IMG/VR virus record: IMGVR_UViG_3300042549_009448
Coordinates: 62,001-126,000 of that record
Strand: one strand, 5' to 3'
Source of the DNA: a virus
Length of the DNA stretch: 64,000 bases
The notes beneath the pieces were generated by a model. The model saw only the letters and a list, made by a program, of their open reading frames with translations, was not told where the DNA came from and did no database searches. The first letter of the stretch is position 1; each line of letters opens with the position of its first letter. Below, in pieces: positions 1 to 64,000 of this stretch. The translations under genes and the position numbers were made by a program.

Positions 1-605
1 TCATTTTCGTCATCATCGCTTTCTTCTGTGCAAAGTTTCTTAACGGCTGCGCATACTAGGTCGCAAATGTCTTCTTTTGTCATTTCCATCTTTTCAGCGA
101 TATCTTCAATGACATCGTTAATGTCATCTCCAAATTCTTCCATTAAAGTGGCTAATTGTTCTTCGTCGATTACTGGCTCATCAGACGGCATATCGTCGTC
201 AGACAGCATAGAGTCATCGGTTTCTGGCATTTCTTCTTCTGCCTCAGCGAACATGTTAAAATCTTCGTTAACGAATTGGTCAAAGCGAAGTATTCTTCCT
301 TCTTCAACAGCGCTAACCGTTGCAATTGTTTGTTTTGCGTACATTGGGTTAAATGGTTTTTTCTTTGCCGTTCTTGAAATTAGGTCACGAGTTACCGCCT
401 TCCATGTTGGGTCATAATTGTGGTTGAATTTTCCACCTTCAAAATCGGCATTTCGGTCAATAACTCGTTGATAGCCTTTTAGTGTTTCTCGTTTTGATGT
501 ATCAAAGTCTTTCTTTGATGTTGGACCTCCGAAACTAGGTTTCTTAGGATCCATGTAATCATCCATCGAAGGATTACGTCGGTCTTTAGTGTTGAACATG
601 TCCAT
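1..605 (-). CDS. Acidic putative head protein with internal capsid-targeting-like motif (partial)
   Basis: Open on the minus strand from ATG at 605 and runs off the left edge. An in-frame ATG at 599 is an alternative start. The first 100 residues are basic to neutral. At residues 105-114 lies ILRFDQFVNE, followed by a very acidic region rich in E, D and M. The motif matches the F-x-x-F-[ILV]-x-E tag seen in many other proteins here, and prohead protease cutting after its E would release the acidic C-terminal part. I do not recognise the family. Location just downstream of the tail tube gene suggests a virion protein. The coding call rests on the uninterrupted frame, sensible composition and the motif. 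Confidence 0.65.
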   Translation of the reverse strand, partial: MDMFNTKDRRNPSMDDYMDPKKPSFGGPTSKKDFDTSKRETLKGYQRVIDRNADFEGGKFNHNYDPTWKAVTRDLISRTAKKKPFNPMYAKQTIATVSAVEEGRILRFDQFVNEDFNMFAEAEEEMPETDDSMLSDDDMPSDEPVIDEEQLATLMEEFGDDINDVIEDIAEKMEMTKEDICDLVCAAVKKLCTEESDDDEN

Positions 606-625
606 ATTTTTATAGATGATTATTT

Positions 626-1210
626 TTACTGTCCAATTCTTGATTCGGTGTAAGAATCCGCTGTGAACTGTGCAGTTAACTTATAGATACCTTCACTTGT
701 GTAATCAAGTGCAGTTTCAGTCATTTTAGCTGGTCCAATGAATACTGGAGAGAACATGAAATCTCTAAAGATTAAACCTGCTCGGTTGAACTGAGTTACT
801 TGAATGCTTGCATCCGCATAGTCAGTTTTTAGTCCTTGACGACCAGTTAATGGATTATAGATTAAATCCGCCCATGATCTTAACGCGTTGTAAATGTACA
901 TATCGTTACTATTGTTTAAGTTAACCTCAAACTCAATTGTGAACTGATGATATGTTTGCGATGGTTTTGATGGTGCGTAAGTTCTTTGTGAGAATTTATA
1001 GTTTTGAATAACTACGGCTGATCCTGAACCTGCGTATTCTGGTAAACTTGTTACTTTCAATACGTGTTCAAGCATTAGATTATTACCGAAACCGATTTTT
1101 CCAGACACTGCAGGCGGCGGGGTAATGATAACCTCGAACTGGTTAAGGTAAATAGGTTCGTACTTACCTGGACCTGCTGTTGAATTTTTAAAATGTGGTA
1201 GACCTGCCAT
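626..1210 (-). CDS. Tail tube protein (gp19-like)
   Basis: 194 residues, the usual size for a T4-type tail tube subunit, which stacks as hexamers inside the contractile sheath. The N-terminus (MAGLPHFKNSTAGPGKYEP) and the mixed beta-strand pattern with YHQFTIEFEV and the C-terminal GIYKLTAQFTADS resemble tail tube / gp19 family proteins. A late-type box AATAAATAA lies 21 nt upstream and overlaps the stop of the preceding gene. No sheath gene is visible in the window, so the sheath is probably beyond the left edge. Family assignment is by overall resemblance, not by a single diagnostic motif. Confidence 0.65.
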   Translation of the reverse strand: MAGLPHFKNSTAGPGKYEPIYLNQFEVIITPPPAVSGKIGFGNNLMLEHVLKVTSLPEYAGSGSAVVIQNYKFSQRTYAPSKPSQTYHQFTIEFEVNLNNSNDMYIYNALRSWADLIYNPLTGRQGLKTDYADASIQVTQFNRAGLIFRDFMFSPVFIGPAKMTETALDYTSEGIYKLTAQFTADSYTESRIGQ

Positions 1211-1230
1211 CTTATGTCTTTATTTTTTAG

Positions 1231-1239
1231 TTATTTATT
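1231..1239 (-). promoter_or_regulatory. Late-type promoter for tail tube gene
   Basis: AATAAATAA on the minus strand, 21 nt upstream of the tail tube ATG. It matches the T4 late -10 box (TATAAATA), and the same box and spacing recur across the window. Confidence 0.5.
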
Positions 1240-2355: not shown

Positions 2356-2358
2356 TTC

Positions 2359-2664
2359 TTATCCAATTTCTTTTTCTCCCTGAAATTCTTTTCCACGGTT
2401 AGATTTCTTTCTAGTTGGGTCGACCGGTTTGTAGTTGGCCCAAATTTCATTATAGATTCTGCAAGAAGCCCCCATGAAATTAACGATTCCAACGTACTTC
2501 TTACGGTCTGCACCCTTCATTTTAGAGATTTTCTTTCCAATGCTTCGCGCATCATCCAAGTCCAATTCCTCATCTTCAGTCTTTCCGACCAAGTCTTTGA
2601 TAGAATTTTCCTGAATCAGGTAAGCTTGAAAGGACTGAACCTTATGCTTGTTTTGATCTTTCAT
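2359..2664 (-). CDS. Small putative internal head protein with N-terminal capsid-targeting motif
   Basis: 101 residues. Near the N-terminus is VQSFQAYLIQEN, which fits the S-F-x-x-[FY]-[ILV]-x-E tag with cleavage expected after E. The rest is charged, rich in K, D and E, with a short segment KKYVGIVNFMGASCRIYNEIW that may be a small fold. The gene starts 18 nt after the preceding small tagged gene. No named family recognised. Confidence 0.6.
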   Translation of the reverse strand: MKDQNKHKVQSFQAYLIQENSIKDLVGKTEDEELDLDDARSIGKKISKMKGADRKKYVGIVNFMGASCRIYNEIWANYKPVDPTRKKSNRGKEFQGEKEIG

Positions 2665-2682
2665 TTCAGGATCGCTTTTTTA

Positions 2683-3048
2683 TTACTTAGGCATTTTAGC
2701 CATGCTAGGCTCAACTTTCTTGTTGATAGCCTTTCCTTTGATAACCAATTTAGCCATCTTAGGTTCAACTTGTTTATTAATCGAACTACCTTTAGAAGTA
2801 GGTAATTTAGAAGTTTTTACATCAACTGATTTGCTGATTGCTTTACCTTTACCTTTAGGCAGGCCTGCCATTTCCGGTTTAACTGATTTGCTGATTGCTC
2901 GACCATTTCCTTTAGGAAGATCTGAAGTTTTAGCGTCTACTGACTTGTTAAACTTAGAACCTTTACCTTTAGGCATGTCTGCCATGTGTTGATCGATTGA
3001 CTTCTTTTCAAAAAGAAATTCGCCGTAGCTTAAAACTGATTTGCTCAT
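2683..3048 (-). CDS. Basic 19-residue-repeat internal head protein with capsid-targeting motif
   Basis: 121 residues, strongly basic. It begins MSKSVLSYGEFLFEKK, a close match to the T4 internal-protein targeting peptide, with cutting predicted after the E of LFE. The rest is about five copies of a 19-residue repeat of the form V-x-x-K-M/T-x-x-L-P-K-G-K-G-x-x-I-S-K-S, with little hydrophobic core. By analogy with T4 IPIII and related basic internal proteins, a DNA-associated packaged protein is likely. A late-type box lies 36 nt upstream. Confidence 0.65.
   Translation of the reverse strand: MSKSVLSYGEFLFEKKSIDQHMADMPKGKGSKFNKSVDAKTSDLPKGNGRAISKSVKPEMAGLPKGKGKAISKSVDVKTSKLPTSKGSSINKQVEPKMAKLVIKGKAINKKVEPSMAKMPK
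2690..3010 (-). repeat. About five 57-bp in-frame repeats
   Basis: Degenerate tandem repeats of about 57 bp (19 codons), with recurring tttaggcaggcctgccat-like and gatttgctgattgcttt-like segments. They encode Lys/Gly/Ser-rich repeats. One unit is a codon shorter. Confidence 0.75.
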
Positions 3049-3083
3049 TGTGTTTTATTATTTTATAGTGTCTTTAGGAATAT

Positions 3084-3167: not shown

Positions 3168-4889
3168 TTAGTAAGAAGCAGAAGGACGGTTTGAACCAGT
3201 CAATACACCTAGACCGTCAACAGTCAATGTGATGTATTGTGTTTCAGGGTGCCATCCAGCCTCAGTGATTGCATAACGAGACTTCATACCGATCTTAGGA
3301 GAGAAAGTTCCCTCTGCGATAGTTTGAAGAGACTCAGCCATGATGTAAGGTAAGAATTTAACACCTGGTTCTTCGTCAGCACCTTTACGTCCGATGTGGA
3401 TACGGTTATCGCTGAACTTCAAGTTAGGATCTACGTAGATGGTTAAACCGTGTACTTTACCTGCAGGATATAATTGACCTGGAGTAGAAGGTAGATCATT
3501 ATTGAATGGAGCAAAAGAGTAACCAGCAACATCAGCAAGAGCAGATGCAACACGACCATTAGTCACGATGTAAGTACCAGCACCAAAACGACCTCTATGA
3601 TAAATCAAGTTAGCCATTTCAAGAATTTTGGTTACAACACGACGTTGTAGTGTTGAGATGTTCTCGAAACCAGTTGAACCTACAGTTAGGTTAAGGGTAC
3701 AGATGTCAGCACCTTCAACCGCTTCAAGAGAAGTTTTGTGAGTAGCTCCTAAAGTTAATACTCTGTCAACCAATTTCTTGTTGATAGATTGAGCAAGTTC
3801 GTTAACTGCTACGTTTTCCAACATAGAGATTACATCGAAGTTCCAAACTCTGTTAAGATCTTGGATTTGCTCAACTGTTGCAGAGATAGCAATTTGGTCG
3901 CCTTTAGCCTCGATGAACTTAGTGAACATACGAAGACCCATTTGACGGAATTTAGAAACCTCAGCTGTAGCACGAGTCATTCCATCGAAGTTAGCTTGAG
4001 AACCAGTAGCTCCTAAGAAAGGACCATCAAATGCAGTTGATGCATAGTCAGCATCACTTTCTGAAGTGAAACCAGAGATATGGTTTTCTAGTGCAGATAC
4101 CAAAGTAACTGTCATACCATCAGCACCTCCGAATCCTAACCAAGGATTAGCCGTTGTACCAGCAGCAGCGGCACTAGTATCAGTACGAGTACCTGTGCGA
4201 GTAACGTTATCAAGAGCAGCAACCGCATCAGCTACTGTAGTAGTAGATGAATCAGTTGTTCCACCTTGAACCACTTTAAGGATTGGTAAACCGTCTACAC
4301 GAGATTTTCCAACGTATTGGAATTTGAATGCAGCAGCCGCATTACCAGTATCACCTTGGATATAATCACCTATTGTGATACCTGTATTGACTGCAGAAGA
4401 TAATTTAACTAAGAACGGCTCATATTGAGTGTCTAAATTACCACCTTGGTATACATAATCCAAATAAGGTAAGAAACCTACTGGAGAATCCATAGGAACT
4501 ACACCAACTAGGTCGAAACCAATAGTTTTAGCAGCAACTTGGATAGCCACCGGTAAAAGGCTTGGGAATTTATCACCAGAACCTGATACGCTTGCGCCGT
4601 AACCTGCTTTAGTAGCACCACCACCAGTGAACGGAGTCATTCCGCTAGTAGGAGCAGAGATTGCACCCATTGCGCTGATTGAACCCGGTTGTTGCAGGAA
4701 CAAACCTGGAGCTGAACCTGAAGCTAATGCCTCGTTTAATGAACCTGCGTTATCGAAGATAGCATGGTTGTGAGCTAAGTCAACTAACCAAGGACGAGCT
4801 TTAATGTCTGCGCCATAACCTTCTAAAACTGGAGCCCATGTTTCTTTGATTGAAGCATCGTTCAATCTTTTGAAAATTTTTGTTGCCAT
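3168..4889 (-). CDS. Major capsid protein (gp23-like)
   Basis: 573 residues. It shows the T4 gp23 pattern of a Gly/Ala-rich N-terminal arm followed by the conserved region containing AAKTIGFDLVGVVPMDSPVG and FLPYLDYVYQGG. The C-terminal end has FSPKIGMKSRYAITEAGWHP. The subunit assembles the icosahedral head. Directly upstream is the protease-scaffold gene (20 nt gap), as in T4 where 21-22-23 are adjacent. A candidate protease site, PVLE followed by GYG, lies near residue 24, but the true maturation site cannot be fixed. The gene has its own strong terminator. Confidence 0.92.
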   Translation of the reverse strand: MATKIFKRLNDASIKETWAPVLEGYGADIKARPWLVDLAHNHAIFDNAGSLNEALASGSAPGLFLQQPGSISAMGAISAPTSGMTPFTGGGATKAGYGASVSGSGDKFPSLLPVAIQVAAKTIGFDLVGVVPMDSPVGFLPYLDYVYQGGNLDTQYEPFLVKLSSAVNTGITIGDYIQGDTGNAAAAFKFQYVGKSRVDGLPILKVVQGGTTDSSTTTVADAVAALDNVTRTGTRTDTSAAAAGTTANPWLGFGGADGMTVTLVSALENHISGFTSESDADYASTAFDGPFLGATGSQANFDGMTRATAEVSKFRQMGLRMFTKFIEAKGDQIAISATVEQIQDLNRVWNFDVISMLENVAVNELAQSINKKLVDRVLTLGATHKTSLEAVEGADICTLNLTVGSTGFENISTLQRRVVTKILEMANLIYHRGRFGAGTYIVTNGRVASALADVAGYSFAPFNNDLPSTPGQLYPAGKVHGLTIYVDPNLKFSDNRIHIGRKGADEEPGVKFLPYIMAESLQTIAEGTFSPKIGMKSRYAITEAGWHPETQYITLTVDGLGVLTGSNRPSASY

Positions 4890-4908: not shown

Positions 4909-6900
4909 TTAGTTTTGTGCTCTTCTTTGGAGCATTTCAATGTAAGAATTAGAGTAGCCTCTTAGTCCTTCATTGACTTGTTTTAACGAGACATAACCTT
5001 CTTTACCTTGGTTTTCGTTAATTGTTTGATTATTTATATTTGCTTGAGTCGCAATTCTTTCACTAATTCCTCTAAGATTACGTGAATCCCAGAAGGCTTT
5101 AACTTGGTATGGAGTGTTCAACGCCATATTATTAGCTTGTGCTGAAATCCAATTTTTTTCACCGTCTGTCATGCTTTCGTATACTTCTTTGTATTGAGCA
5201 GGCATGAATTTAACGTAGTTAGGAGTGTTTTCAACCTGCTTGTTAAGAACCGCTTCCATGATATTAACTACTTCGTCTTCTGTGAAGAAGATAGCACCTC
5301 TCATTGTCTCAACGATTGCGGTTTTAGACGTTTGATCTAAGTTATAGAAAGCCTGTTTTCTAGATTCGCTTAACAGCTTCAAGAAAGGATATTTGCTTTC
5401 TAAAATTGCGTGAGCTGTATTGGATTTAATATGAGTTAAGATACCGTCAACTGCATTAACTAGATCATCTACTGATGAAGTTTCAGAGATTTCAAAATTA
5501 GCACTTTCATTTAATTTTTTAACCTCTCCCAATAGAGAACGTGTTTTAGCGGTTGCTCCAGGAATCATTTTTTCATTTAAAGATTCAGCAATATAGCTAG
5601 AATACTTGATACCTTTATCTAAGTTTTCTCCTAAGTAGTTAGAGTATTGGATTGTTGCATCAAGATTCTCAGCTAAGTAGTTAGAGAATTTGATTCCATT
5701 TTCAGCGTGTTCTGCAACGTGCTCAGCATATTGAATGCTTAGGTCAACGTTCTCAGCTAAGTAGTTTGTGTACTCTACTGTTTTTTCAACGTTTTCTGCA
5801 ACGTATTCAGCATAGTTAGCTGTTTCATTTACTTTTTTACCTAAGTAATCAGAGTAGGCAATGTTCTTTTGAACTTTGTCTCCCAAGTAGTCAGAGTAGT
5901 CAATTACATTGTTTACTTTTTCTGCAACATGCTCAGTGTAATTAACACCCTGATTCATCATAGTTGAAAGATAGTTAGTGTATTCAACTAGGCTTTCCAT
6001 TTCGCCAGCTAAGTAGTTTACGTACTCAACCATTTTCGAAACTACTGGTGATTCATCAGTTGAAGCGTTTTCAGAGATCTTTTGAAGACCTTTATTGTTT
6101 TTGGAGATGCTCTCTTGTAAAGTTGAAAACTTCTTTTTAACCAATTCAGAGTATTGGTTCATCTCGTCTTTTGTTACAAACTCATTAGCCATTTGCTGTG
6201 TATTATTTTGTTTAGGGGTTGTTTCAGAATTATTTATTTTATAGATTCTCACAGAATCTTCAAAATTGAAGTTTTCAGAAATATCCATTAATTTGTTGGT
6301 AATTGCCGTAGTCTTTAGATTATCTAAAGATTCAAAAATCGCTGAGAAACTTCCTTGTAGGCTTTCAGATACCTGAGATAACGAAGCTTGTGAGAAACCG
6401 GGTTCAGCTACTAGATCGTAAGTGAATATCTTATGTAGTTTAACCTTACCGTTCTGATCAACATTACCTGCTGCTCTAGATGATACTGATGTTGTACAGC
6501 CAGCTTCAACTAAAGTCTTTGCGATCTTTCCGCATGGAGTATCAAGAAGTCGTAGTCTAATCTTTACGCTGTTGGAACCTTCATCGTAACTAAGACTTTC
6601 GATTACGTGAGATACGTTAGCTAAGGAAATATCAAATTTTTGTGGATGATCAAGTTCACCAAAGAGTCTGCGCTCTTCAATCTTCTTGTTTAGATACTGT
6701 AGGTGAGGTAAGTACTCATTCTTTTCGTATACACGGTTATTTTCGTTTACGACTCCAAAAACGGCAGCAGTACCTTCAAGAATAACGTCACCGTTAGATT
6801 CTTTGGTTACAGTAACGGCCTCGTTAATTCTTTCAATGATAAACACCGAATTTTCAGGAATGACCGTTTGGTTTAGGTTAGCGATTTTAGTACTACTCAA
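4909..6900 (-). CDS. Prohead protease (gp21-like) fused to coiled-coil scaffold (gp22-like)
   Basis: 663 residues, two proteins in one. Residues 1 to about 190 match the T4 gp21 serine protease: GELDHP places His at 85, and CTTSVSSRAAG places Ser at 138-141, close to the T4 gp21 His85/Ser140 catalytic pair. The region with YDLVAEPGFS follows. From Met237 (MANEFVTKDEMNQYSEL) the rest is a highly charged, coiled-coil scaffold, including 11 exact-length 14-residue repeats at residues 291-444. In T4 protease and scaffold are separate genes. Here an internal late-type box and an ATG at 6192 could also yield free scaffold. The protease should mature the capsid and cut tagged internal proteins. Confidence 0.88.
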   Translation of the reverse strand: MSSTKIANLNQTVIPENSVFIIERINEAVTVTKESNGDVILEGTAAVFGVVNENNRVYEKNEYLPHLQYLNKKIEERRLFGELDHPQKFDISLANVSHVIESLSYDEGSNSVKIRLRLLDTPCGKIAKTLVEAGCTTSVSSRAAGNVDQNGKVKLHKIFTYDLVAEPGFSQASLSQVSESLQGSFSAIFESLDNLKTTAITNKLMDISENFNFEDSVRIYKINNSETTPKQNNTQQMANEFVTKDEMNQYSELVKKKFSTLQESISKNNKGLQKISENASTDESPVVSKMVEYVNYLAGEMESLVEYTNYLSTMMNQGVNYTEHVAEKVNNVIDYSDYLGDKVQKNIAYSDYLGKKVNETANYAEYVAENVEKTVEYTNYLAENVDLSIQYAEHVAEHAENGIKFSNYLAENLDATIQYSNYLGENLDKGIKYSSYIAESLNEKMIPGATAKTRSLLGEVKKLNESANFEISETSSVDDLVNAVDGILTHIKSNTAHAILESKYPFLKLLSESRKQAFYNLDQTSKTAIVETMRGAIFFTEDEVVNIMEAVLNKQVENTPNYVKFMPAQYKEVYESMTDGEKNWISAQANNMALNTPYQVKAFWDSRNLRGISERIATQANINNQTINENQGKEGYVSLKQVNEGLRGYSNSYIEMLQRRAQN
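5569..6030 (-). repeat. Eleven 42-bp (14-residue) coiled-coil repeats
   Basis: Eleven consecutive units of exactly 14 codons, pattern [VI]-x-Y-[ST]-x-[YH]-[LV]-[AG]-E-x-[VL]-x-x-x, from Val291 to Lys444. Two heptads per unit fit a long continuous helical scaffold. Unit length is invariant though the sequence has drifted. Confidence 0.88.
6231..6239 (-). promoter_or_regulatory. Internal late-type promoter for separate scaffold product
   Basis: AAATAAATA on the minus strand inside the fusion gene, about 39 nt upstream of the in-frame ATG at 6192 (Met237). It could drive a scaffold-only transcript. The spacing is longer than for most such boxes here. Confidence 0.35.
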
Positions 6901-23188: not shown

Positions 23189-23740
23189 TCACCATTCACC
23201 AATCATGAACTCATACCTGAATTGGCTAGTGTCAAATGACTCATTCATGTGAATTTCCACGCTAGTCGGCTCAATCGGAAAATACTGCCGAGTAAAGTCC
23301 CATTCAAACCGGTCCCCGATATTATCATCAATGATTTCAATTGTCGTTGTTACCGTCTCATTTTTAACCTCATTCCAGGTCTCAACCTCAATCACCAATT
23401 TCATTCTTTTTGGAATGAATATTATTCGGTCAATCCCAACCGACGTCCAATCGACTATCATATCGTATTCAAGCTCTAGCTTGCGACCTGATAGGTATTC
23501 AATCTCGGTTGAATTGACCAAGCCTATTGCTTTAAGTTGAGCATGATCCTCCTCTGACATTCCAGTATCTTTATCATCTATTGTATCAGGATTGTCATAC
23601 AGATTAATTCCGCGATAGTCAAATTCCGTTTTAAAAATTTCAGGCCTTTGATACAGGTTCTGTGCCAGCCTAAGTTGCTCTGGGCCCTTATATGACTCAG
23701 TTATTAAGTAAGACTTGAAAGATTCAATTGCCTTTTCCAT
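23189..23740 (-). CDS. Putative internal head protein with capsid-targeting motif
   Basis: 183 residues. The N-terminus MEKAIESFKSYLITES fits the T4 internal-protein targeting consensus, with cutting predicted after the E of ITE. The rest has two beta-rich segments (ELEYDMIVDWTSVGIDRIIF and KLVIEVETWNEVKNETVTTT) and ends FRYEFMIGEW. Last gene before a terminator. Its start overlaps the previous stop. The family is unknown to me. Confidence 0.65.
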   Translation of the reverse strand: MEKAIESFKSYLITESYKGPEQLRLAQNLYQRPEIFKTEFDYRGINLYDNPDTIDDKDTGMSEEDHAQLKAIGLVNSTEIEYLSGRKLELEYDMIVDWTSVGIDRIIFIPKRMKLVIEVETWNEVKNETVTTTIEIIDDNIGDRFEWDFTRQYFPIEPTSVEIHMNESFDTSQFRYEFMIGEW

Positions 23741-24351: not shown

Positions 24352-24915
24352 TTACCAAAATCCTGGATATGTTTTACCGCCCCATAGATGAGCGTATCTG
24401 TTAATTCTGCATGCCCAGTAACCGGCAGTGGTTCTGTCATTTTTTAGATGACATTGATGTCTTGCTGCAAAACTTTTACGAGCTTTAGGATTGCTTACTT
24501 TTGCAGTTAATCCACCATGGACGTCTCCGAATGCAATTTTTTTAACCTTTTTAGTTTTTGGATTAACGACGTAAACGTAATACTTTTTTGTTCCGCCTCT
24601 CATTGGCTTGCCAGTCTCAACGGTCTTTCCGTGATACTCTGCTTCAAATAAAAAGTCCAACGGCACAATCTCACCTCGATATTCTCCAAATCTTCCAAGG
24701 TCAGTCTCTTCAAATAAAATCTGATCAATTCCAGTAAGTTTAATCTCTCCTCTGGAGTAGGCTGTTCTAGCTTCAGCCAGGAGCTCAAAATGAGCTTGAC
24801 TTGCTGGACGATATACTGACTCAGCTATTGAAATACCTTCATCTATATGATAGAGTAGGCTCTCTGATACCAGAGATTCATTAAATTGACTAAATGATTT
24901 TACGAGTCTTTGCAT
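24352..24915 (-). CDS. Putative head protein with N-terminal tag and conserved C-terminal Cys/His domain
   Basis: 187 residues. The N-terminus MQRLVKSFSQFNESLVSES carries the targeting-like motif and two candidate cut sites. The C-terminal domain (about 110-187) has KKYYVYVVNPKTKKVKKIAF, FGDVHGGLTAKVSNPKARKS, ARHQCHLKNDRTTAGYWACR and INRYAHLWGG. This domain recurs in T4-type phage proteins of unknown function (DUF5872-like in my memory, unverified). The conserved C and H residues may bind metal. The combination suggests a packaged enzyme or DNA-binding factor. Confidence 0.65.
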   Translation of the reverse strand: MQRLVKSFSQFNESLVSESLLYHIDEGISIAESVYRPASQAHFELLAEARTAYSRGEIKLTGIDQILFEETDLGRFGEYRGEIVPLDFLFEAEYHGKTVETGKPMRGGTKKYYVYVVNPKTKKVKKIAFGDVHGGLTAKVSNPKARKSFAARHQCHLKNDRTTAGYWACRINRYAHLWGGKTYPGFW

Positions 24916-24918: not shown

Positions 24919-25530
24919 TTATTCTTTATTTAGTGAACCTCCGCACTCGCATACGTCACCTTCATTTATAACAGCCGCTTCATAAGAGGTTCCACATTCA
25001 TTGCATGTGTAACTACCTTCGGCCATGTACTCTTCATTCTCTGGATTATCAGACATTCTGTCATTATGTTCAGAACGGCGTTTACGGTCAGAGTATTTTC
25101 CCTTAGGCCCAAAGTTTTTTAACTTAGCTAAATTCTCTGCTCTGGCCTTAGGATCATAATCTCCCATCGTTCCTTTTACGTTTGTATGAGAGGCTGCTGT
25201 AATATCTCTATCGTGAATACCTTCTTCAATATTCTCATTCATTTCACCAATTAGAAAGTTAGCAACTTCTTCAATATCATCCTTTGATGTAGCAATATGA
25301 TCTACCGCCCAACTATGCCCGTTCTTTAAAATTTGATCTACTTTTCTTGGATCCATTTTTAACATGATCTCAGTCAATCTTTGGATTGTTTCCAAGTTTC
25401 CGAAAAGCATGTAGTTCTCAACTTTATGGTGATCATCATGATCGACTTTATCGGTTGAGAATTGGTGCGGCATCATTTCATGATCGTTTGGCTCACTAAA
25501 AAAGCTTTCAAATGTTTTAATAATTTTCAT
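24919..25530 (-). CDS. Putative internal head protein: targeting motif plus C-terminal zinc ribbon
   Basis: 203 residues. Begins MKIIKTFESFFSEPND, with the tag and predicted cut after FSE. The middle is acidic/His-rich and helical (ETIQRLTEIMLKMDPRKVDQ). The last 30 residues form a zinc ribbon: YTCNECGTSYEA, then DVCECGGSLNKE (CxxC...CxC). A zinc ribbon at the C-terminus recurs in two other virion candidates here. Four bases separate it from the large upstream gene. Confidence 0.65.
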   Translation of the reverse strand: MKIIKTFESFFSEPNDHEMMPHQFSTDKVDHDDHHKVENYMLFGNLETIQRLTEIMLKMDPRKVDQILKNGHSWAVDHIATSKDDIEEVANFLIGEMNENIEEGIHDRDITAASHTNVKGTMGDYDPKARAENLAKLKNFGPKGKYSDRKRRSEHNDRMSDNPENEEYMAEGSYTCNECGTSYEAAVINEGDVCECGGSLNKE

Positions 25531-25534: not shown

Positions 25535-27088
25535 TTATCTGTTATTTTGTTCTTTTATAAAATCTGCGAATCCCAATACGGATGAAGACTTCTTCTTTTT
25601 CTTTTTAGTATTGCCACCAAGCGAAACGAATTTATCGCCTGAGCCTATCGTATTTTGAGTCGGTGGAGTGATTGGTCCCATTGAGCCTATTGAGCCTGGA
25701 ACCTGTGGAGTAACTCCAGGGGCTTCGCCTTCCTCAGTAACTGCTTTAGGTTTGGGTTCGTCAACTACCGATGTGTCTAAGATAAAGAGTCTAGAGTAAG
25801 CATCCGCTTTCATTTCGCCTTCTCTGCCCTTAACCGCTTTACCTACTGCCTTCGCTGTAGTATTCAAAGTTTTAGCATACAGCGTATGTAGGTGTTTACC
25901 GGTTTTAGCAAACGCTTGACCGGCTGCCGTATTTCCTGTAGTATCTTCTCCAAATACAAGTCCCATTAGTGCTTGAGAAGCTTTTCTGAACTTCATTATC
26001 TTTGTATCATCTGCGATCTGCTTTCCTGTAACCGGTAGAGCAGTTCTTTCATATAATGGTAATTTCTTATCGAAATCATAATGAATTCCCTTGTATTTCT
26101 TGGTTTCAAATTCTTTGCTTTTGGCTCTTTCGATAAGACTCTTTTGAATTCCATCAACCATTTTAACTAAGTATTCTTTAGCTTCGTCAGATACGTCCGG
26201 AAATCCGTTAATACTCACCTTTAGCGCATTTGCTTCTCGGATAATATCGGCTTCATTTGTCCAGTTTGTGTATTGAAATTGAAAGATTCTTCTAATTATA
26301 GATGCAGTGTTCTTGTTAATGAATAGTCCGCTTTTTAGGTCAGCTGAGGTGCCAGCTCCCAATTTTGCGTCTATTTTAGCCTCATATTCTTTGTCTGCTG
26401 CTTGGATACCTGAAGTAAGTTCATCAGACATGTCGTCCGTGATTACCTCGGCTGTGTGAATTGCATCAAATACTTCGGTTGCTGCTTCTTTTTGGGCTTC
26501 CTCAGTTTCGGCCTGTTCAAAGTTAGCATAGGCTTGTTGTGCTATTTTGGCTGGAATTTTAATCTTTAAAGAGAATGCCTCAGCTAAATCATCCTGCACC
26601 TTTTTAATCGTTTCGTAAATTTCTCCGCTAAAATCAGTTGTGCCTTTGCTGTCTAACTTAGCATAAATCTTTTCAAGAACATGAATCCTTGCAACAAACG
26701 TAAAAATCTTACGACTTATTTCTTCGATTTCAACCTCATTGACTTCCTTTTTAGATAGGGCCTCTTCTAGGTTTTTACGGAATTCTGCAACTCTCTCGGT
26801 CAAGTAAGCGAAATAACTGTCTAAAACCGCTTTCATTTTTGGATTACCGAAGTACCGGTCAAACGCCGGATCGTCCAGTTTCGAATTTAGATCGTCCTCG
26901 CCCATTGCAAAAAGAGCGTCCAATAATCTATTAAGCATTTCGTTAGGATCCTCCTTGCTCTTGCCGTCTTCGCTGCCGGATTTCCGATCCTTGTCCACCA
27001 AGTTATCAATCTGACCTCCGATTTGGATGAGATCCGCTTCTAGAATCAGGCTTTGAATTGACTGCAGTCTTTTTACTTTTAAAAACAT
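25535..27088 (-). CDS. Large putative internal virion protein with tag-like sequences at both ends
   Basis: 517 residues from ATG at 27088, chosen because it lies 1 nt after the upstream stop and because a TTG start at 27136 would overlap it. The N-terminus MFLKVKRLQSIQSLILEAD has an [LI]-L-E|A protease site. The body is predicted mostly helical and charged. A Pro/Gly-rich linker (about 450-495) and poly-Lys lead to the C-terminal SSSVLGFADFIKEQNNR, a full match to the tag. No enzymatic motif seen. Probably a head-interior or ejection protein (inference). Confidence 0.6.
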   Translation of the reverse strand: MFLKVKRLQSIQSLILEADLIQIGGQIDNLVDKDRKSGSEDGKSKEDPNEMLNRLLDALFAMGEDDLNSKLDDPAFDRYFGNPKMKAVLDSYFAYLTERVAEFRKNLEEALSKKEVNEVEIEEISRKIFTFVARIHVLEKIYAKLDSKGTTDFSGEIYETIKKVQDDLAEAFSLKIKIPAKIAQQAYANFEQAETEEAQKEAATEVFDAIHTAEVITDDMSDELTSGIQAADKEYEAKIDAKLGAGTSADLKSGLFINKNTASIIRRIFQFQYTNWTNEADIIREANALKVSINGFPDVSDEAKEYLVKMVDGIQKSLIERAKSKEFETKKYKGIHYDFDKKLPLYERTALPVTGKQIADDTKIMKFRKASQALMGLVFGEDTTGNTAAGQAFAKTGKHLHTLYAKTLNTTAKAVGKAVKGREGEMKADAYSRLFILDTSVVDEPKPKAVTEEGEAPGVTPQVPGSIGSMGPITPPTQNTIGSGDKFVSLGGNTKKKKKKSSSVLGFADFIKEQNNR

Positions 27089-27089
27089 A

Positions 27090-30427: not shown

Positions 30428-30453
30428 ATTTAAGTTGTAATTATTTTAGTAAG

Positions 30454-37500: not shown

Positions 37501-37885
37501 TCTTTGCTTTACTTATTTCAATCGCCTGTAATTGCTTTACTGCTTTTTTACGACTTGTGTGAGTTCCCAATACTTGAGTTCCCTTTTTATTCTTTACTTC
37601 CCATTTATCTCCGTGCTTAACGATCTTTTCAGTTATCTCGTTAAACTCCGAAAAGCTATGAACCTTATTTTCGTGAATCGCCAATTCTAATTGTTTAGCA
37701 AAGACTGCTGGTTGGGGCTCAGTGCTACAATTACCTAAGGCTGCTGCGCATATCTCAACTTTTTTAACTATATCAGCTACTCTATCCTTAATAACCTCGA
37801 GTTTTTGAACCTGCACAGTAGTTAGTTCAGTCGTATTTTCTTCAATCATGTACAGATACTCAAGAAACTGGTCAATTTTTTCCAT
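37490..37885 (-). CDS. Putative head protein with internal tag-like motif and small C-terminal domain
   Basis: 131 residues. Residues 77-86 read HSFSEFNEIT, matching the tag, and the N-terminus MEKIDQFLEYLYMIEEN is a weaker version. The last 45 residues (DKWEVKNKKGTQVLGTHTSR, KKAVKQLQAIEI) match a small phage domain often found at protein C-termini, with a G-T-H-x-[ST]-x-x-x-A-x-x-Q-L-x-A-I pattern. Overlaps the next gene by 11 nt. Function unknown. Confidence 0.6.
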   Translation of the reverse strand: MEKIDQFLEYLYMIEENTTELTTVQVQKLEVIKDRVADIVKKVEICAAALGNCSTEPQPAVFAKQLELAIHENKVHSFSEFNEITEKIVKHGDKWEVKNKKGTQVLGTHTSRKKAVKQLQAIEISKAKNAR

Positions 37886-45439: not shown

Positions 45440-45454
45440 TTGACCTGTGTATTT

Positions 45455-45823
45455 TTAGATAGGTTTACTAGCCTTATTCTTTTGCTCTATTTGAGTTTGC
45501 ACCTGTTTAATTCTATTCAAGATCGAAAGGCGTTTGTCGTCAGTATCAGCAGTCGCTAGCTCCTTTCTAAGTTCACGAGTTGCATTGATTGCATCAATCT
45601 CAGCTTGGGTGTCAGTTGCCGCTTCCTGTATTGGAGCGCTCTTAGTCTTGGTGTAATCTGGCTCAGTTGACTTTATTCCAGTAGATAGGCTCGCGCGCTT
45701 AACCTGGTCAATTGATTTCTCCTTTTTTACTGGAGCTGCCGCTTTAACATCAAGTGCAGTTTTAGGTTCACCTAATTTAGAACCTTTTACGAATGAATCG
45801 AAGTTTAAAAGTTTATTACTCAT
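45455..45823 (-). CDS. Basic putative internal head protein with tag-like N-terminus
   Basis: 122 residues from ATG at 45823. A TTG at 45835 is in frame but ATG fits the promoter spacing better. Starts MSNKLLNFDSFVKGSKLGEP, similar to the tag but lacking its E. The body is Lys/Ala-rich with KKEKSIDQVKRASLSTG, echoing the KKSIDQ of the basic repeat protein at 2.7 kb. It ends in a probable helix. Likely packaged or head-associated. Confidence 0.55.
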   Translation of the reverse strand: MSNKLLNFDSFVKGSKLGEPKTALDVKAAAPVKKEKSIDQVKRASLSTGIKSTEPDYTKTKSAPIQEAATDTQAEIDAINATRELRKELATADTDDKRLSILNRIKQVQTQIEQKNKASKPI

Positions 45824-45840
45824 AGTATTTGTCAATTTTT

Positions 45841-45850
45841 ATTATTTATC
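45841..45850 (-). promoter_or_regulatory. Late-type promoter
   Basis: GATAAATAAT on the minus strand, 18 nt upstream of the ATG at 45823, overlapping the stop of the preceding gene. Confidence 0.5.
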
Positions 45851-46096
45851 ATTGCTTGGACCAGGTTCAAATATTCCATCCACGAATTCGTTGAATGTTA
45901 GTACTTTAGAGGTCTTTGGGTTCGCTCCAATCCCAGGAGTATTATTCATTTTCATGTCCCTTCTTGAAATTGGCTGGGTCGATAACCAGTGATTCGGAAT
46001 TCCACCCATGTGAATATTAATCGGAGACGGTTGAATATTCGGATCATTACTTTGGGTGAAAGCCGCTGCCGGTACTGTACCTGTGCTGCTTGCCAT
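45842..46096 (-). CDS. Small putative head protein with C-terminal tag-like motif
   Basis: 84 residues from ATG at 46096. An earlier ATG at 46117 lies only 4 nt from the late box, so the later start (25 nt) fits better. Gly/Pro/Asn-rich, low complexity. Near the C-terminus is SKVLTFNEFVDGIFEPG, a tag match with G in place of E, followed by FE. No family recognised. Confidence 0.5.
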   Translation of the reverse strand: MASSTGTVPAAAFTQSNDPNIQPSPINIHMGGIPNHWLSTQPISRRDMKMNNTPGIGANPKTSKVLTFNEFVDGIFEPGPSNDK

Positions 46097-46120
46097 ATTT
46101 GTAGCATGTTCTTTCATAGG

Positions 46121-46130
46121 ATTATTTATT
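46121..46130 (-). promoter_or_regulatory. Late-type promoter
   Basis: AATAAATAAT on the minus strand, 25 nt before the ATG at 46096. It decides the start choice for that gene. Confidence 0.45.
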
Positions 46131-46141
46131 CGGGTCTAGCC

Positions 46142-46169
46142 AAAATAAAAAAGCCCGACGAATCGGGCT
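46142..46169 (-). terminator. Rho-independent terminator
   Basis: Stem AGCCCGA / TCGGGCT with loop CGAA, then a T-rich minus-strand tract (complement of 46142-46151). Ends the zinc-ribbon gene transcript. Confidence 0.85.
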
Positions 46170-46190
46170 CATTCACTTAATTAGTCAATG

Positions 46191-46928
46191 TTAGTATTCT
46201 GGGCTCCAGTTACTGTCTCCACAGTTAGAGCATCTCATTCTAGGATTCTCTTCGATTTCTTCATGTTCTGCACGTTCTCCGCAAGTATCGCAAGAGTATG
46301 CAGTAGATTCATTAACCTTTAGGTTTGCAGCAGATTCCATCATGCACTCGGTCATGTAAGAGCCGCATTCGTTTAAGTAATTCTCGTACGTATGCATTGT
46401 GTCCTTATCTTCGTCGCACATTTGAGCCTCTTTAATCAAGATATTTTCGCAAACTTTCTTGATGGCCTGTTTTGCCTCTTCTGACATTGCTGGACTGTAA
46501 CCTTCTTCCATTGGATTCCAGCATTCGGTTACAAAGCTTTCAAATGTTTTTGCAGCCTTGCCTTTTTTCTTGTCCTGAAGAGCTTTTTTCATGGATTCCT
46601 TTTCATCTCCATCTTGATCAAAATCTAGATGATCCGGTTTACCTTTCTTTGCTTCATCTAGTTCGTCCATGCCGGAAACTATTTCAACTTCAACCGGAAT
46701 CGAGTATTCGTGATCTCCGTGTTGAGCGGTTAACATTCCATCGCCATCATAGTCAAATCTTAACTCAACTTCTTGGCCGTCCTGTGTTTTTATTACGATC
46801 ATGGCATGATCATCGCCATGACCACTTAATGATAGTATTGTCGGATGAATTGCTCTTCCCTCGTGTGATTCTGGAATCGGCTCTCCCATCATGAATTTAG
46901 GTATTCTCCTGTTACCAAACTTTCCCAT
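46191..46928 (-). CDS. Putative head protein: internal capsid-targeting motif plus C-terminal zinc ribbon
   Basis: 245 residues. The N-terminal part has a small acidic beta domain (KTQDGQEVELRFDYDGDGML). At about residue 127-136 is AKTFESFVTECW, a full tag match placed internally. The C-terminus is a zinc ribbon: YSCDTCGERAEHEEI followed by MRCSNCGDSNWSPEY (CxxC...CxxC). Perfect TATAAATA 22 nt upstream and its own terminator indicate strong separate late expression. The arrangement of tag and zinc ribbon parallels the protein at 24.9 kb. Confidence 0.65.
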   Translation of the reverse strand: MGKFGNRRIPKFMMGEPIPESHEGRAIHPTILSLSGHGDDHAMIVIKTQDGQEVELRFDYDGDGMLTAQHGDHEYSIPVEVEIVSGMDELDEAKKGKPDHLDFDQDGDEKESMKKALQDKKKGKAAKTFESFVTECWNPMEEGYSPAMSEEAKQAIKKVCENILIKEAQMCDEDKDTMHTYENYLNECGSYMTECMMESAANLKVNESTAYSCDTCGERAEHEEIEENPRMRCSNCGDSNWSPEY

Positions 46929-46949: not shown

Positions 46950-46957
46950 TATTTATA
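46950..46957 (-). promoter_or_regulatory. Late-type promoter
   Basis: Perfect TATAAATA on the minus strand, 22 nt upstream of the ATG at 46928, overlapping the end of the sugar-kinase gene. Confidence 0.65.
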
Positions 46958-49696: not shown

Positions 49697-49704
49697 ATAC
49701 AATT

Positions 49705-54825: not shown

Positions 54826-55134
54826 TTAGTCTTTTTTAGGCTCGTCATCCATCATGACGTTTGCATCAACTACAGGGGCATCAGCTTCTCCGGTTTCATC
54901 GTCTGTCATGTGAACTGCTGAATCAGTCTCAGGCTCATCGCTAATTGGCTCTTGTGCTGGAACAGGCATATCGTCTCCAACCGGTTCAGACATGGTTGGT
55001 TCTTCTACTGGAGTAGGAAATTCGTCGTGCATTGGCTCAAATTCAGTCGCTGGCATTTCTGTGCCAACTTGACCTTGCACATTATGCTTCACGAACTCTT
55101 GAAAGCTTAAGATTGTATTGGTATTAGTCTCCAT
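54826..55134 (-). CDS. Acidic putative internal head protein with tag-like N-terminus
   Basis: 102 residues. METNTNTILSFQEFVKHNVQ matches the tag (S-F-Q-E-F-V) but lacks the final E. An alternative site GTE follows at about residue 25. The rest is extremely acidic and Pro/Met-rich low complexity (EPISDEPETDSAVHMTDDET). Late-type box 20 nt upstream. Confidence 0.58.
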   Translation of the reverse strand: METNTNTILSFQEFVKHNVQGQVGTEMPATEFEPMHDEFPTPVEEPTMSEPVGDDMPVPAQEPISDEPETDSAVHMTDDETGEADAPVVDANVMMDDEPKKD

Positions 55135-56126: not shown

Positions 56127-57038
56127 TTAGGTGAATTTAATGGCAAATTCTCCACCGCGTTTATCATAGTCTACGAATAGTGAATCTGCTACTTTTTTAT
56201 CAACGAGGCCGTCTCCATCTTTACCTGGAGTCTTTACTTGATCTCCAGGTTTCAGAGTTTTTGGAACCTTACGACCGTCCGGTAATTGAACTAACACTTT
56301 CACAAATCCATCAGCTCTAGCACTCGTTCGGTTCATGACCTCAACTATCTCAACCGGTACGAAATCGCGCATGAAAGGAATCCATACTGATATTATTCTA
56401 CCGGGTGAAAGAGTATACTCGCTTTCGACTTTAGCGATCTTTTTAAAATTGGCACTCGCCTTTTCTAATTTTTCGACAGTACCGTCTTCCTTAACTGAGA
56501 TTAGTAGTTTTGAACTCTCATGCTCAATAACTTGAGTGTCTACCGTCCTTCCGAATTTTCTTATGTGATGATCGTTTGAATTCTTAGCGAGTTCTTCATG
56601 AGACACCGAAGTTGGGAAAACTTTTAGCGTTACAGCCTCATTATGATTTATATAGCCGACTATCATTTCGCCATGATATATCTTTATAATTTCCCTTTGT
56701 GTCTTTGGGTCAATGTCTACTGACTCAACCGACATTTTAACCGGAGCTTCAAACTTTCCAATCTTAATGATTGGAATCAACATTATGTCAGCAACGTGCC
56801 TATTAGCAAAATCATTTCTTTGTATAACTCTAACCTTACTTTCAAACTCTTGTCTAATTAGATCAGCTATTTTTGGTTGAACTTCTATTGTAGAAATTCC
56901 ATTTTCTCTTAATAAAGTAAGCGTCTTGTCAGATAAGGTAACAATCAACGAATTCATGATTCTTTGACGGGTCCGATCCTCGAAGTGTTGTTTTAATGCA
57001 GCTTCATTAACGAATTCAGTAAAATCTAATAATTTCAA
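56127..57038 (-). CDS. Putative internal head protein with capsid-targeting motif (TTG start)
   Basis: 303 residues with a TTG start at 57038. Two things support this start. The encoded N-terminus MKLLDFTEFVNEAALKQ is a complete tag with cut site VNE|A. A perfect TATAAATA lies 22 nt upstream. The next Met is at residue 28, past the tag. The body has MLIPIIKIGKFEAPVKMSVE, SPGRIISVWIPFMRDFVPVE and VKVLVQLPDGRKVPK, a beta-rich fold of unknown family. It probably matures inside the head. Confidence 0.65.
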   Translation of the reverse strand: MKLLDFTEFVNEAALKQHFEDRTRQRIMNSLIVTLSDKTLTLLRENGISTIEVQPKIADLIRQEFESKVRVIQRNDFANRHVADIMLIPIIKIGKFEAPVKMSVESVDIDPKTQREIIKIYHGEMIVGYINHNEAVTLKVFPTSVSHEELAKNSNDHHIRKFGRTVDTQVIEHESSKLLISVKEDGTVEKLEKASANFKKIAKVESEYTLSPGRIISVWIPFMRDFVPVEIVEVMNRTSARADGFVKVLVQLPDGRKVPKTLKPGDQVKTPGKDGDGLVDKKVADSLFVDYDKRGGEFAIKFT

Positions 57039-59203: not shown

Positions 59204-59209
59204 TATTAG

Positions 59210-61577: not shown

Positions 61578-62311
61578 TATCCGTTTACTATTTTAATTGC
61601 TTCTTCTTTATCGACTGGATCATAATCAACTTCTCCAGTTGCTTCATTTATGCTAGTAACTACGCCATATCCACCAGTTCTTTCATTTCTAATAATGTCT
61701 CCAACTGAGAGAGGTTGCTCTTGACCTCCACTTGGACCTAAACCTCCTTCTTTTCCACCGCTTCCACCGTTACCCGGCTTTTTCTTTGGCTTCGGAGCAG
61801 ATTCAACTTCTACGTATATTTGTTCTGCATTCAGGCCCTTATACTTATCGTCTATTAGACCTCGAAGGTCATTTGCAATTTCTGCTTTTGAGATAATACC
61901 GTCATCCGCTAACATTAAGTTAATCTCATAGTCGCCTGCGATATTCCATTTTTCAGGATCTCTGCCCTCCATTCTAGCAAAGTGTAGAAGTGCACAGTGC
62001 AAAACTTCATGGCACAAGATAAAGACTATTTGTTTTTCAGTCAGTGGAGCAAAGAAATCAGGATTAATGAATAGGTGGACGCCGTCAACCGCAGCAGTTT
62101 GAATTTGCGGGTGTCTTGTATAAACGATTTTGAGTTTATAGGCAAGCTCTGCAAAAAAGCGGTATCTACCAGTTAAGACTTGAAATGCATAGGATACTTT
62201 AATTCTAGTTATCTTAGAATTTGGATCATCCATTTGATTCTCTAAAACTAGATTGGATTTAGAGAATTGGCTGTATTGGTTAAAACTATTCCAGTCTAGG
62301 AGTCTTTTCAT
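61577..62311 (-). CDS. Zinc metallopeptidase-like protein (DUF2201 N-terminal-like) with capsid-targeting-like motif
   Basis: 244 residues. The N-terminus MKRLLDWNSFNQYSQFSKSN and following NLVLENQ carry a tag-like W-N-S-F and a V-L-E protease site. QIVFILCHEVLHCALLHFAR is an H-E-x-x-H zinc site, followed by KWNIAGDYEINLML as in DUF2201 proteins. A Gly/Lys-rich linker and a small C-terminal beta domain (GGYGVVTSINEATGEVDYDP) end it. Cellular DUF2201 proteins join this region to a VWA domain. Here the two are separate coupled genes. Confidence 0.82.
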   Translation of the reverse strand: MKRLLDWNSFNQYSQFSKSNLVLENQMDDPNSKITRIKVSYAFQVLTGRYRFFAELAYKLKIVYTRHPQIQTAAVDGVHLFINPDFFAPLTEKQIVFILCHEVLHCALLHFARMEGRDPEKWNIAGDYEINLMLADDGIISKAEIANDLRGLIDDKYKGLNAEQIYVEVESAPKPKKKPGNGGSGGKEGGLGPSGGQEQPLSVGDIIRNERTGGYGVVTSINEATGEVDYDPVDKEEAIKIVNG

Positions 62312-63876
62312 TATGGATTAAGATTTGCGGCTTGAATTTCTCTAGTTGAACCAGGATATGCAGCCAAGAATTTTTTAAGTCCAGCAACAGTTGCTGGATA
62401 AGTATTTTTTGCGACATTTGGCTGGTTCTCTCTAACTGCTGATAGAATTTGAATCGCAACAGTTGGATCGCCGACTCTAATAATATACTCAAATAAGTTG
62501 TCAATTTCCTGATCAGTTAGATCTCTGTCCCGGTATTCGTATGCAATTGCTGATGCAAGGATGTATGCTGAATCGATTTCGTAATCATTACTACCTCTTG
62601 ATTTAGGAGGTAACGGTGCATTCATTGGATCAGAGTACACCAAATTCATTTTATCAAGGTCGATCTTTTGAGATAGTGCATAGTAACCCATGAACATGCT
62701 TGCAGCTTCTTTACCTACATTTGGTGCAATTGCTTCGTTTTCAATAATTTCTGGAGTTAGTGTCATGCCAGACTCAGCAGATTCCCTCTTAAGATTTTTC
62801 AAAGCAATGGCAGCCGCTTCCCATGAACGTGGGCTTGGGAAAATAGTACCAGAGACGTCTGGATCGTATTTGTGAAAAAAGTCTTGACCTTTTGTCCAGT
62901 TCAAAAATGAAATAATACGTGGATCAAATAGGTCTTCGCCAGTTTCACTTTTTGCAGAAAGTGCATACTTACTGTAATCTTTAATGGATGGTGAATAGTT
63001 TACCTGTTGGAAACGATTACCTAGGGCAGAACCAAATTCGGATGTATTAGTTTCATCGTCTTCCATTCGGTTAGAGGCAGCAATGATCGTCCAGTTGCTA
63101 CCTAATTTCCAACCTCCATCCATTTCTCTATCGAGTACAAGTTTCAAACAAATATTACGGATTGCCTCTTTAGCTCTTGATAATTCGTCTAAGAAGATAA
63201 TTCCGCCCTTTCCATCTGGGCCGTTTGCTTTATCATTACCTTCTTGACCTTCAGACTCGTGATAAACCGGTAACCAGCCCTGTGGAACACGACCTGCTCT
63301 ACGTGAATATCGGCCCTGCTGTGAAGTTGAACCTTCTACTTCAGGTAAGAAGAAATCTTCTGGTGCATAGGTTGTCAACTGTACATCAATCATACGGCCT
63401 CCGTATTGTTTTTGAACCGCTTTAACGACTGATGTTTTACCAATACCTGGTGCTCCCCATATCATTATCGGACGTTCGTCCTTGTTTTTAAGGACTCTGT
63501 TGATAATTCTTAATAGTCTCTCAGCTCCCACATTTATAACACCAGCCTTCACATTTGGAAAGTCCAATGGAACCACAGCTTCATCAACATCTGCAGAATC
63601 AGATTCCCCATCTCTTGTGATTTGTGGCATTTCCGTAATATCAAGTGCCTGTGCATCGGCTGCCGATGGAATGATAGTTACGCCATACGGAATAGTACCA
63701 TCTGCACCGTTTTCTGATCGCTTGCCGCTCATTTGGGCTTTTAAAGCACTTAAGAAACCGCCGGCTTTTCCAAGAAAGCCTTTAACTGCACCAATTGCCT
63801 TTTTACCAAGTTCGCCTAAGCCTTCATTGTTTAAATTTTCAGTAATGAATTCTGAGTAAGATTTAATGATTCTCAT
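62311..63876 (-). CDS. MoxR-family AAA+ ATPase with N-terminal capsid-targeting motif
   Basis: 521 residues. MRIIKSYSEFITENLNNEGL begins the protein with a near-perfect copy of the T4 internal-protein leader, cut predicted after ITE. The AAA+ core (about 130-330) has IMIWGAPGIGKTSVVKAVQK (Walker A), KGGIIFLDELSRAKEAIRNI (Walker B) and WTIIAASNRMEDDE (sensor 1). MoxR ATPases remodel VWA-protein partners. The downstream genes encode exactly such partners, and gene ends overlap by one base (TAATG), so all three form one unit. Late box 23 nt upstream. Confidence 0.88.
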   Translation of the reverse strand: MRIIKSYSEFITENLNNEGLGELGKKAIGAVKGFLGKAGGFLSALKAQMSGKRSENGADGTIPYGVTIIPSAADAQALDITEMPQITRDGESDSADVDEAVVPLDFPNVKAGVINVGAERLLRIINRVLKNKDERPIMIWGAPGIGKTSVVKAVQKQYGGRMIDVQLTTYAPEDFFLPEVEGSTSQQGRYSRRAGRVPQGWLPVYHESEGQEGNDKANGPDGKGGIIFLDELSRAKEAIRNICLKLVLDREMDGGWKLGSNWTIIAASNRMEDDETNTSEFGSALGNRFQQVNYSPSIKDYSKYALSAKSETGEDLFDPRIISFLNWTKGQDFFHKYDPDVSGTIFPSPRSWEAAAIALKNLKRESAESGMTLTPEIIENEAIAPNVGKEAASMFMGYYALSQKIDLDKMNLVYSDPMNAPLPPKSRGSNDYEIDSAYILASAIAYEYRDRDLTDQEIDNLFEYIIRVGDPTVAIQILSAVRENQPNVAKNTYPATVAGLKKFLAAYPGSTREIQAANLNP

Positions 63877-63898
63877 TTCTATATAAACTCTTTTTTTG

Positions 63899-63907
63899 TT
63901 ATTTATT
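63899..63907 (-). promoter_or_regulatory. Late-type promoter for MoxR operon
   Basis: AATAAATAA on the minus strand, 23 nt upstream of the MoxR-like ATG. Implies late expression together with head genes. Confidence 0.5.
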
Positions 63908-63931
63908 ATTGCCCGATGTGGATTTCGTGGT

Positions 63932-64000
63932 TTATTTATTTCTTTTTGCTAACTTTCGTTTGACCGCTTCTCGAGTTGATTCCATCTTCTTTGCATACGA
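63932..64000 (-). CDS. C-terminal end of a basic protein (partial)
   Basis: Minus-strand frame enters from the right edge and encodes SYAKKMESTREAVKRKLAKR then N-K and TAA at 63932. Lys/Arg-rich. Too short to identify. Confidence 0.45.
   Translation of the reverse strand, partial: SYAKKMESTREAVKRKLAKRNK

Follow-up and report, generated by a model that had tools for sequence, protein, structure and literature searches.

The small internal proteins IPI-III of bacteriophage T4 are non-homologous but share an N-terminal leader of about 10 residues, the capsid-targeting sequence (CTS; MKTYQEFIAE), in which aromatic residues at positions i and i+3 are followed by [IL]xE. The leader is processed by gp21. 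Targeting of IPIII depends on residues 4 and 7, and its processing needs residues 8 and 10 (PMC9026906); the same protease also cuts the T4 core proteins gp22, gp67 and gp68 (PMC5694885). CTS-like leaders of T-even ip genes, of which there are at least 10 across the group, likewise identify packaged, injected proteins (Repoila 1994, cited in PMC12373910). In the giant phages phiKZ, 201phi2-1 and SPN3US, many head proteins (19 each in phiKZ and 201phi2-1; PMC10052503) are cut after Glu by a gp21-related protease (PMC10052503, PMC5694885); their propeptides are reported to be much longer than the T4 CTS, and no common short tag is described for them in the available text of these papers. Here we describe a T4-like tag that recurs on about 30 proteins of one uncultured phage genome, the 180,030-base virus record IMGVR_UViG_3300042549_009448 (G000). 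The window analyzed is the 64,000-nucleotide stretch at positions 62001-126000 of that record.

An N-terminal tag on otherwise unrelated proteins

The tag, [ILV]-x-x-[FY]-x-x-[FYW]-[ILV]-x-E, is ~10 residues long and opens about 28 proteins of G000 (at least 28), lying at most ~20 residues away from the N-terminal end; under half of this N-terminal set lies in the window (Table 1). A first-pass annotation of the window had listed 12 N-terminal tags, and all 12 are present in the genes it named. The adjacent [ILV]xE is missing from genes 45455 (FDSFVKG), 54826 (FQEFVKH) and 61577 (WNSFNQY; genes are named by their lower coordinate), with a later [ILV]xE in the first (KLGE) and last (LVLE). Two further N-terminal tags described there as weak, in genes 25535 and 37490, were unsupported. 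After the tags had been stripped from 27 carriers, a single pair remained clearly similar and a second match was weak and short, which agrees with the annotation's view that the tag sits on unrelated proteins.

Genome-wide enrichment, which the first-pass annotation had proposed as a check, was evident when a profile trained on the 12 N-terminal window tags was run on the 123 G000 genes outside the window. At a score of ≥12, 9 of 123 held-out N-termini matched compared with 0.09 in shuffles (maximum 2), and there were 0 matches among the held-out C-termini; at ≥10, the N-terminal matches numbered 11 compared with 0.38. A motif-blind N-terminal search over all three-residue patterns (about 34,000 tested) ranked h..F..F first in G000, in 20 proteins compared with 1.6 (p=1.7e-15, uncorrected), and this pattern or a close variant also ranked first in the related genomes G001, G002, G004 and G006. 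N-terminal tags scoring ≥10 numbered 28 in G000, 31 in G002, 18 in G006, 15 in G001, 13 in G004, 9 in G007 and 6 in G005, with about 0.2-1.1 in shuffled N-termini of these genomes. The tags persist in diverged orthologs, and the set of tagged proteins varies between related genomes.

The anatomy of the tag was analyzed in 154 non-redundant tags picked on the first seven columns, i.e., on the aromatic half, which holds no cleavage information. F, Y or W occupies i and i+3 in nearly all of them, as expected from columns used for selection. [ILVMF]xE follows the aromatic half immediately in 40% of the tags, compared with 2% of control stretches from the same proteins, and lies within six residues in 58%, compared with 7%. 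The middle residue of [ILVMF]xE (P2) is most often Asn, and the residue after the tag Glu (P1') is mostly Ser, Ala or Asn, also Gly, which differs from the controls. Both halves of the CTS, aromatics at i and i+3 and then [ILV]xE, are kept, so that the likeness to the T4 leader noted in the first pass holds; by analogy with T4, the only system for which this is known, the two aromatics may carry targeting in G000.

Table 1 Tags and head genes in the window (window coordinates; a slash marks the predicted cut).
Feature	Position	Strand	Gene and remarks
N-terminal tag VQSFQAYLIQE	2608..2640	-	2359-2664; tagged orthologs in G002, G004, G006, G007
N-terminal tag VLSYGEFLFE	3007..3036	-	2683-3048; orthologs
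N-terminal tag IESFKSYLITE	23696..23728	-	23189-23740
N-terminal tag VKSFSQFNE	24877..24903	-	24352-24915; phrog_7595 domain
N-terminal tag IKTFESFFSE	25492..25521	-	24919-25530
N-terminal tag VRLFEEFIAE	36686..36715	-	36035-36724
N-terminal tag IFTFSQFILE	37456..37485	-	36736-37500
N-terminal tag LLNFDSFVKG	45782..45811	-	45455-45835; no adjacent E, KLGE follows
N-terminal tag ILSFQEFVKH	55084..55113	-	54826-55134; no adjacent E
N-terminal tag LLDFTEFVNE	57003..57032	-	56127-57038; TTG start
N-terminal tag LLDWNSFNQY	62273..62302	-	61577-62311; DUF2201_N putative metallopeptidase; LVLE later
N-terminal tag IKSYSEFITE	63838..63867	-	62311-63876; AAA_5/MoxR-like ATPase
Internal tag ILRFDQFVNE	264..293	-	1-605; acidic protein running past the window to genome 61940
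Internal tag VHSFSEFNE(I)	37634..37663	-	37490-37885; kept in orthologs
Internal tag AKTFESFVTE	46524..46553	-	46191-46928; kept in orthologs
C-terminal tag VLGFADFIKE	25550..25579	-	25535-27136; after Lys-rich linker
C-terminal tag VLTFNEFVDG	45875..45904	-	45842-46117; kept in orthologs
gp21-type prohead protease (Peptidase_S77) fused to scaffold-like domain	4909..6900	-	Pfam 2.6e-10; phrog_207 1.9e-38
Eleven tandem 14-residue repeats [YF]-[ST]-x-[YH]-[LIV]-[AG]-E-x7	5563..6024	-	Inside protein 4909-6900
Major capsid protein (Gp23 family)	3168..4889	-	Pfam 3.4e-42
Predicted capsid-protein maturation site LNE/A, residues 51-53	4731..4739	-	Conserved column in clade

Internal and C-terminal copies, protease and capsid protein

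Placement of the tag is not strictly N-terminal, as at least five internal or C-terminal copies are kept in orthologs. Internal profile matches in G000 numbered 3 vs 0.03 at a score of ≥15 and 4 vs 0.47 at ≥13. The internal tags that the first-pass annotation had placed in 1-605, 37490 and 46191 are real and conserved; for protein 1-605, each of the 14 homologs compared, among 32 matches, retains F[DE]xF[VL]NE. G006, G002 and G001 also keep the tags of genes 37490, 45842 and 46191, although a few residues have changed. Among the proposed C-terminal tags, those of 25535 and 45842 are conserved, whereas that of 23740 (FADLVKK) is poorly conserved and was excluded. The C-terminal VLGFADFIKEQNNR of gene 25535 corresponds to ILEFSDFINQNN and VSSFKDFLKGDD at the ends of its orthologs, and the ortholog ending in VSSFKDFLKGDD retains the aromatic core at only 25% overall identity.

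H85 and S140 of the protease-scaffold fusion at 4909-6900 are invariant in 23 homologs, and exactly 11 repeat units are present in 40 of 43 non-redundant homologs. AlphaFold2 predicted a reasonable protease domain and rendered the repeats as one long helix with a pLDDT of about 40-50, a model that gives no information on tag binding. The whole protein contains 36 [LIV]xE sites compared with 13.7 expected and, because many of these sites lie in the repeats, the scaffold is probably self-destructing, like T4 gp22 (PMC5694885). In the capsid proteins of the clade, [LI]NE/[AS] or [LIV]FE is conserved where the maturation cut is expected. The likely cut in the tag matches this site, and by sequence the processing part of the tag therefore looks like a substrate of the protease that would also cut the capsid protein. 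Two related arrangements were seen elsewhere. A segment of phage PAU at about 114549-114755, just upstream of the capsid gene, matches residues 552-620 of protein 4909-6900, which suggests fusion or fission of core-protein genes; and in Tenacibaculum phage PTm1 (NC_049340 217853-219547) an S77 protease is fused to repeats of about 16 residues with LSEG.E.WI.

Most tag carriers in G000 have no known domain. In addition to the tagged enzymes in Table 1, and in genome coordinates, the exceptions include a HAD/deoxyribonucleotidase-like enzyme (45617-46234), a YkuD/Tlde1-domain protein (168058-168834), a protein with a weak nucleotidyltransferase match (170957-172114) and a DUF5824 protein (152500-152979). 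In this HAD enzyme the tag is added to a domain that is already complete; the homologs in Phosso and Atu_ph07 are untagged and begin directly with that domain. GroEL-type (Cpn60; 30245-31828) and GroES-type (Cpn10; 45298-45627) chaperonins are both encoded (Pfam), the latter gene directly preceding that of the tagged HAD enzyme. In the window, a MoxR-like ATPase, the DUF2201_N putative metallopeptidase and a VWA-like protein form a three-gene set (60498-63876) of which the first two are tagged, and genes for a ClpA/ClpC-type double-AAA ATPase (47717-49702) and a PfkB-family sugar kinase (46953-47717) adjoin tagged genes.

The head genes of G000 further include a T4-type portal, and no near-identical DNA was found in the phage collection. 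Genes were called with a script trained on the genome's own long reading frames. Shine-Dalgarno sites are seldom seen at the starts, as is usual for phages of Bacteroidota, and the host appears to be a Bacteroidota-type bacterium. The N-terminus of the G000 protein at genome positions 163232-164473, MKIKRINLVKLLEPKKFYDITVDDTHTFLISRGNIVTHN, resembles the C-terminal end of an intein by sequence appearance.

Virion proteins and possible tag dialects of other phages

With the clade profile, T4, cyanophage P-RSM4, PAU, MaF61 and PTm1 were at chance level, and the blind N-terminal search yielded no clear tag in PTm1 or MaF61. With Met as their first residue, the true T4 leaders score low on this profile, but two T4 internal-protein genes and gp61.1 are recovered by a simple pattern. 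The latter (AF158101 18966-19130), a 54-residue hypothetical protein, starts with the CTS-like MKTFKEFIKED and is a candidate further packaged protein.

LR756500.1, a 462-kb uncultured huge phage, has a capsid protein 37% identical to that of G000 and an S77 protein with degenerate 14-residue repeats. The profile identified 24 tags in it, and the top blind pattern was K....Y..[FYW], in 44 proteins compared with 5.4 expected. Its N-termini are often of the form MKYIKEYEEFILE, with near-identical leaders on several adjacent genes at 313-316 kb, and it has homologs of the MoxR-like ATPase and the DUF2201_N protein, the metallopeptidase homolog (35% identity) being clearly tagged. In Sphingomonas (Sphingobacterium) phage PAU (NC_019521), the blind search identified a different leader, MK[TS][LI]xxL[FY]E, on about 20 proteins and often followed by KLNE[AS]. 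Proteins with this leader, among them the annotated 'internal capsid protein' gp154, cluster around head genes (e.g., 100248-101696, 106051-108180 and 110719-113735), and the leader is likely a second dialect of the packaging tag.

Published mass spectrometry gives independent support by placing tagged enzymes in virions, for a T4-like cyanophage only: S-CREM2, whose virion proteome is available with coordinates (PMC10665884, Table 3). [FY]..[FY][ILMFV].E occurs in the first 30 residues of 6 of 219 annotated S-CREM2 proteins, and 5 of the 6 belong to the virion; once known structural proteins had been left out, the association gave a Fisher p of 0.00024, and across the three patterns tried p ranged from 0.00024 to 0.024 for this non-structural set. 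The tagged virion proteins include a SAM hydrolase (MKDFDSFLEE), an APH-like kinase (MKRFDAFLTE), a cytidylyltransferase (MKNFSSFLTE), the Cas9-like nuclease described below and gp136, and virion proteins gp13 and gp15 carry tag variants. The virion-detected nicotinamide mononucleotide adenylyltransferase (NMNAT) of S-SCSM1 (PMC9602691) starts with MKSFLQFLKE, and the kinase of S-CRM01, present in virions according to PMC10665884, starts with MISFDQFLSE. No mention of a targeting sequence was found in the available text of either paper. A Cas9-like nuclease of the S-CREM2 virion (gp12; OR473000 7704-10313) has the tag LRFASFMAEA at about residues 17-26 and is a possible packaged nuclease.

A proposed targeting role and its comparison with known systems

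We consider it very likely that the G000 motif is a T4-type CTS used on an unusually large scale, for docking to the core, cleavage after [ILV]-x-E and release of cargo in the head. The hydrophobic residues at -3 and i+4 and the two aromatics (i, i+3) would line up along one side of a short helix, which would dock cargo to the prohead core during assembly. This core is probably built by protein 4909-6900, with its S77 protease and eleven-repeat helical scaffold. Once the shell is closed, the protease would cut after [ILV]-x-E in tags, capsid protein and scaffold, freeing the cargo inside the head. The evidence argues strongly for packaging of the tagged proteins; entry into the next host with the DNA is plausible for some of them (the HAD enzyme, MoxR-like ATPase, DUF2201 and YkuD/Tlde1 proteins and many small uncharacterized ones).

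Several points weigh against this proposal. About 32% of the non-redundant tags are without [ILVMF]xE within 14-18 residues, and some tagged proteins may therefore stay uncleaved. For internal and C-terminal tags, processing would be different or absent: after a cut behind the Glu of a C-terminal tag, the protein would still carry the docking part, implying docking alone or trimming of the tail, although C-terminal processing has a known precedent in T4 Alt (PMC9026906). A profile of the scaffold repeats fails to recover the tags. Start positions come from a simple, purpose-written gene caller. S-CREM2 is only distantly related and encodes protease and scaffold separately, six proteins make up the sample there, and its authors cannot exclude co-purification of abundant proteins (PMC10665884). 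G000 itself is uncultured, and we infer its packaging and cleavage.

The tagged proteins could instead be parts of the prohead core or minor head proteins that help to build the capsid or set its size and are not injected, the tag being an assembly and cleavage signal only. Several tagged genes do lie beside those for the capsid protein and protease (genome 61594, 64359 and 64683), the T4 substrates gp22, gp67 and gp68 are core proteins, and protein 1-605 has the strong acidity that core proteins can show. However, the cargo includes recognizable enzymes (HAD nucleotidase, MoxR-like ATPase, DUF2201, YkuD/Tlde1), its composition varies among related genomes, unlike that of a structural core, and the tagged cyanophage virion proteins are also enzymes; we regard this alternative as possible but doubtful. 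It is rather unlikely that the tag derives from the scaffold as a detached repeat by which cargo mimics one of the eleven units and co-polymerizes with the core. The repeat does have the same abstract layout, aromatic-x-x-aromatic-[LIV]-x-E, 11 times over, and LR756500 combines degenerate 14-residue repeats with many tags where PTm1, with different repeats, has none. Yet position 4 holds Y or H in 472 repeat units, without a single F, whereas 124 of 154 tags have F, a repeat-derived profile finds 4 N-termini in G000 compared with 2.0 in shuffles, which is near chance, and a common protease alone may explain the common layout. A tag copied from the scaffold repeat was set aside on these differing residue preferences and missed tags and is kept as a minor rival only.

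Little probability attaches to a docking peptide that merely resembles a CTS and serves some other phage machine, be it for replication or transcription or a host factor: short FxxF-type linear motifs are generic and Glu is missing in some tags, but the aromatic half comes together with a site of protease type that has a matching P1' preference and a counterpart in the capsid protein, and tagged proteins are enriched in the virions of T4-like S-CREM2. We give practically no weight to chance, codon constraints near the start codon or recent duplication of N-termini. Short as the motif is, and although any phage proteome has some N-terminal composition bias, with weak hydrophobic patterns in other genomes, the enrichment is over shuffles of the same N-termini, the held-out test refutes such an origin, internal and C-terminal copies are conserved, and there is one paralogous pair only.

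A broader reading, to which we give even chances, is that phages of the T4 superfamily share a general, evolvable protein-export code, with tags in lineage dialects, placed N-terminally, C-terminally or internally, read by the prohead core and delivering tens of proteins with the genome. The dialects would be F..F[ILV]NE in the G000 clade, Y..F in LR756500, F..FLxE in cyanophages and MK[TS]LxxL[FY]E in PAU. The proteins that a phage carries into the cell are usually identified phage by phage, through separate mass-spectrometry studies; under such a code, the injected proteome, enzymes and nucleases included, would be predictable from sequence alone. Should the tag prove to be a general CTS, sequence would reveal which proteins many large uncultured phages package and probably inject, and anti-defence candidates that act before phage gene expression would become findable. 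The tag could also explain why kinases, NMNAT/cytidylyltransferases and SAM hydrolases turn up repeatedly in the virions of cyanophages, since those checked carry it, and its peptides are at hand for work on cargo loading in laboratory phages.

Set against known systems, G000 is likely a member of the same broad group as the moraphages, aquatic Bacteroidota jumbo phages whose core genes include a Gp23-type capsid protein, a prohead core protease and ClpA (PMC12619734); no packaging tag was found mentioned in the available text of that paper, in a literature search that covered open-licence papers. We regard the finding as a genuine and large enlargement of capsid targeting as known from T4, apparently new within that literature, in which conserved tags also occur internally and C-terminally and the form of the tag varies by lineage. 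The cyanophages S-CREM2, S-SCSM1 and S-CRM01 have virion enzymes that open with a tag of this sort, and the S-CREM2 genome has about six to eight of them. The T-even leaders are spread across a group of phages, whereas G000, from a distant clade of Bacteroidota phages, has about 30 tags in one genome. Shared with T4 are the gp21-family S77 protease and the Gp23-type capsid protein; unlike T4, with its separate gp21 and gp22, G000 has its protease fused to the repeat scaffold, and its tags have F..F rather than Y..F, an extra hydrophobic residue at -3, a position as far as ~20 residues from the N-terminal end and conserved internal and C-terminal copies. With about 28 N-terminal carriers compared with the three internal proteins of T4, together with these additional copies, G000 does go beyond T4, as the first-pass annotation had claimed.

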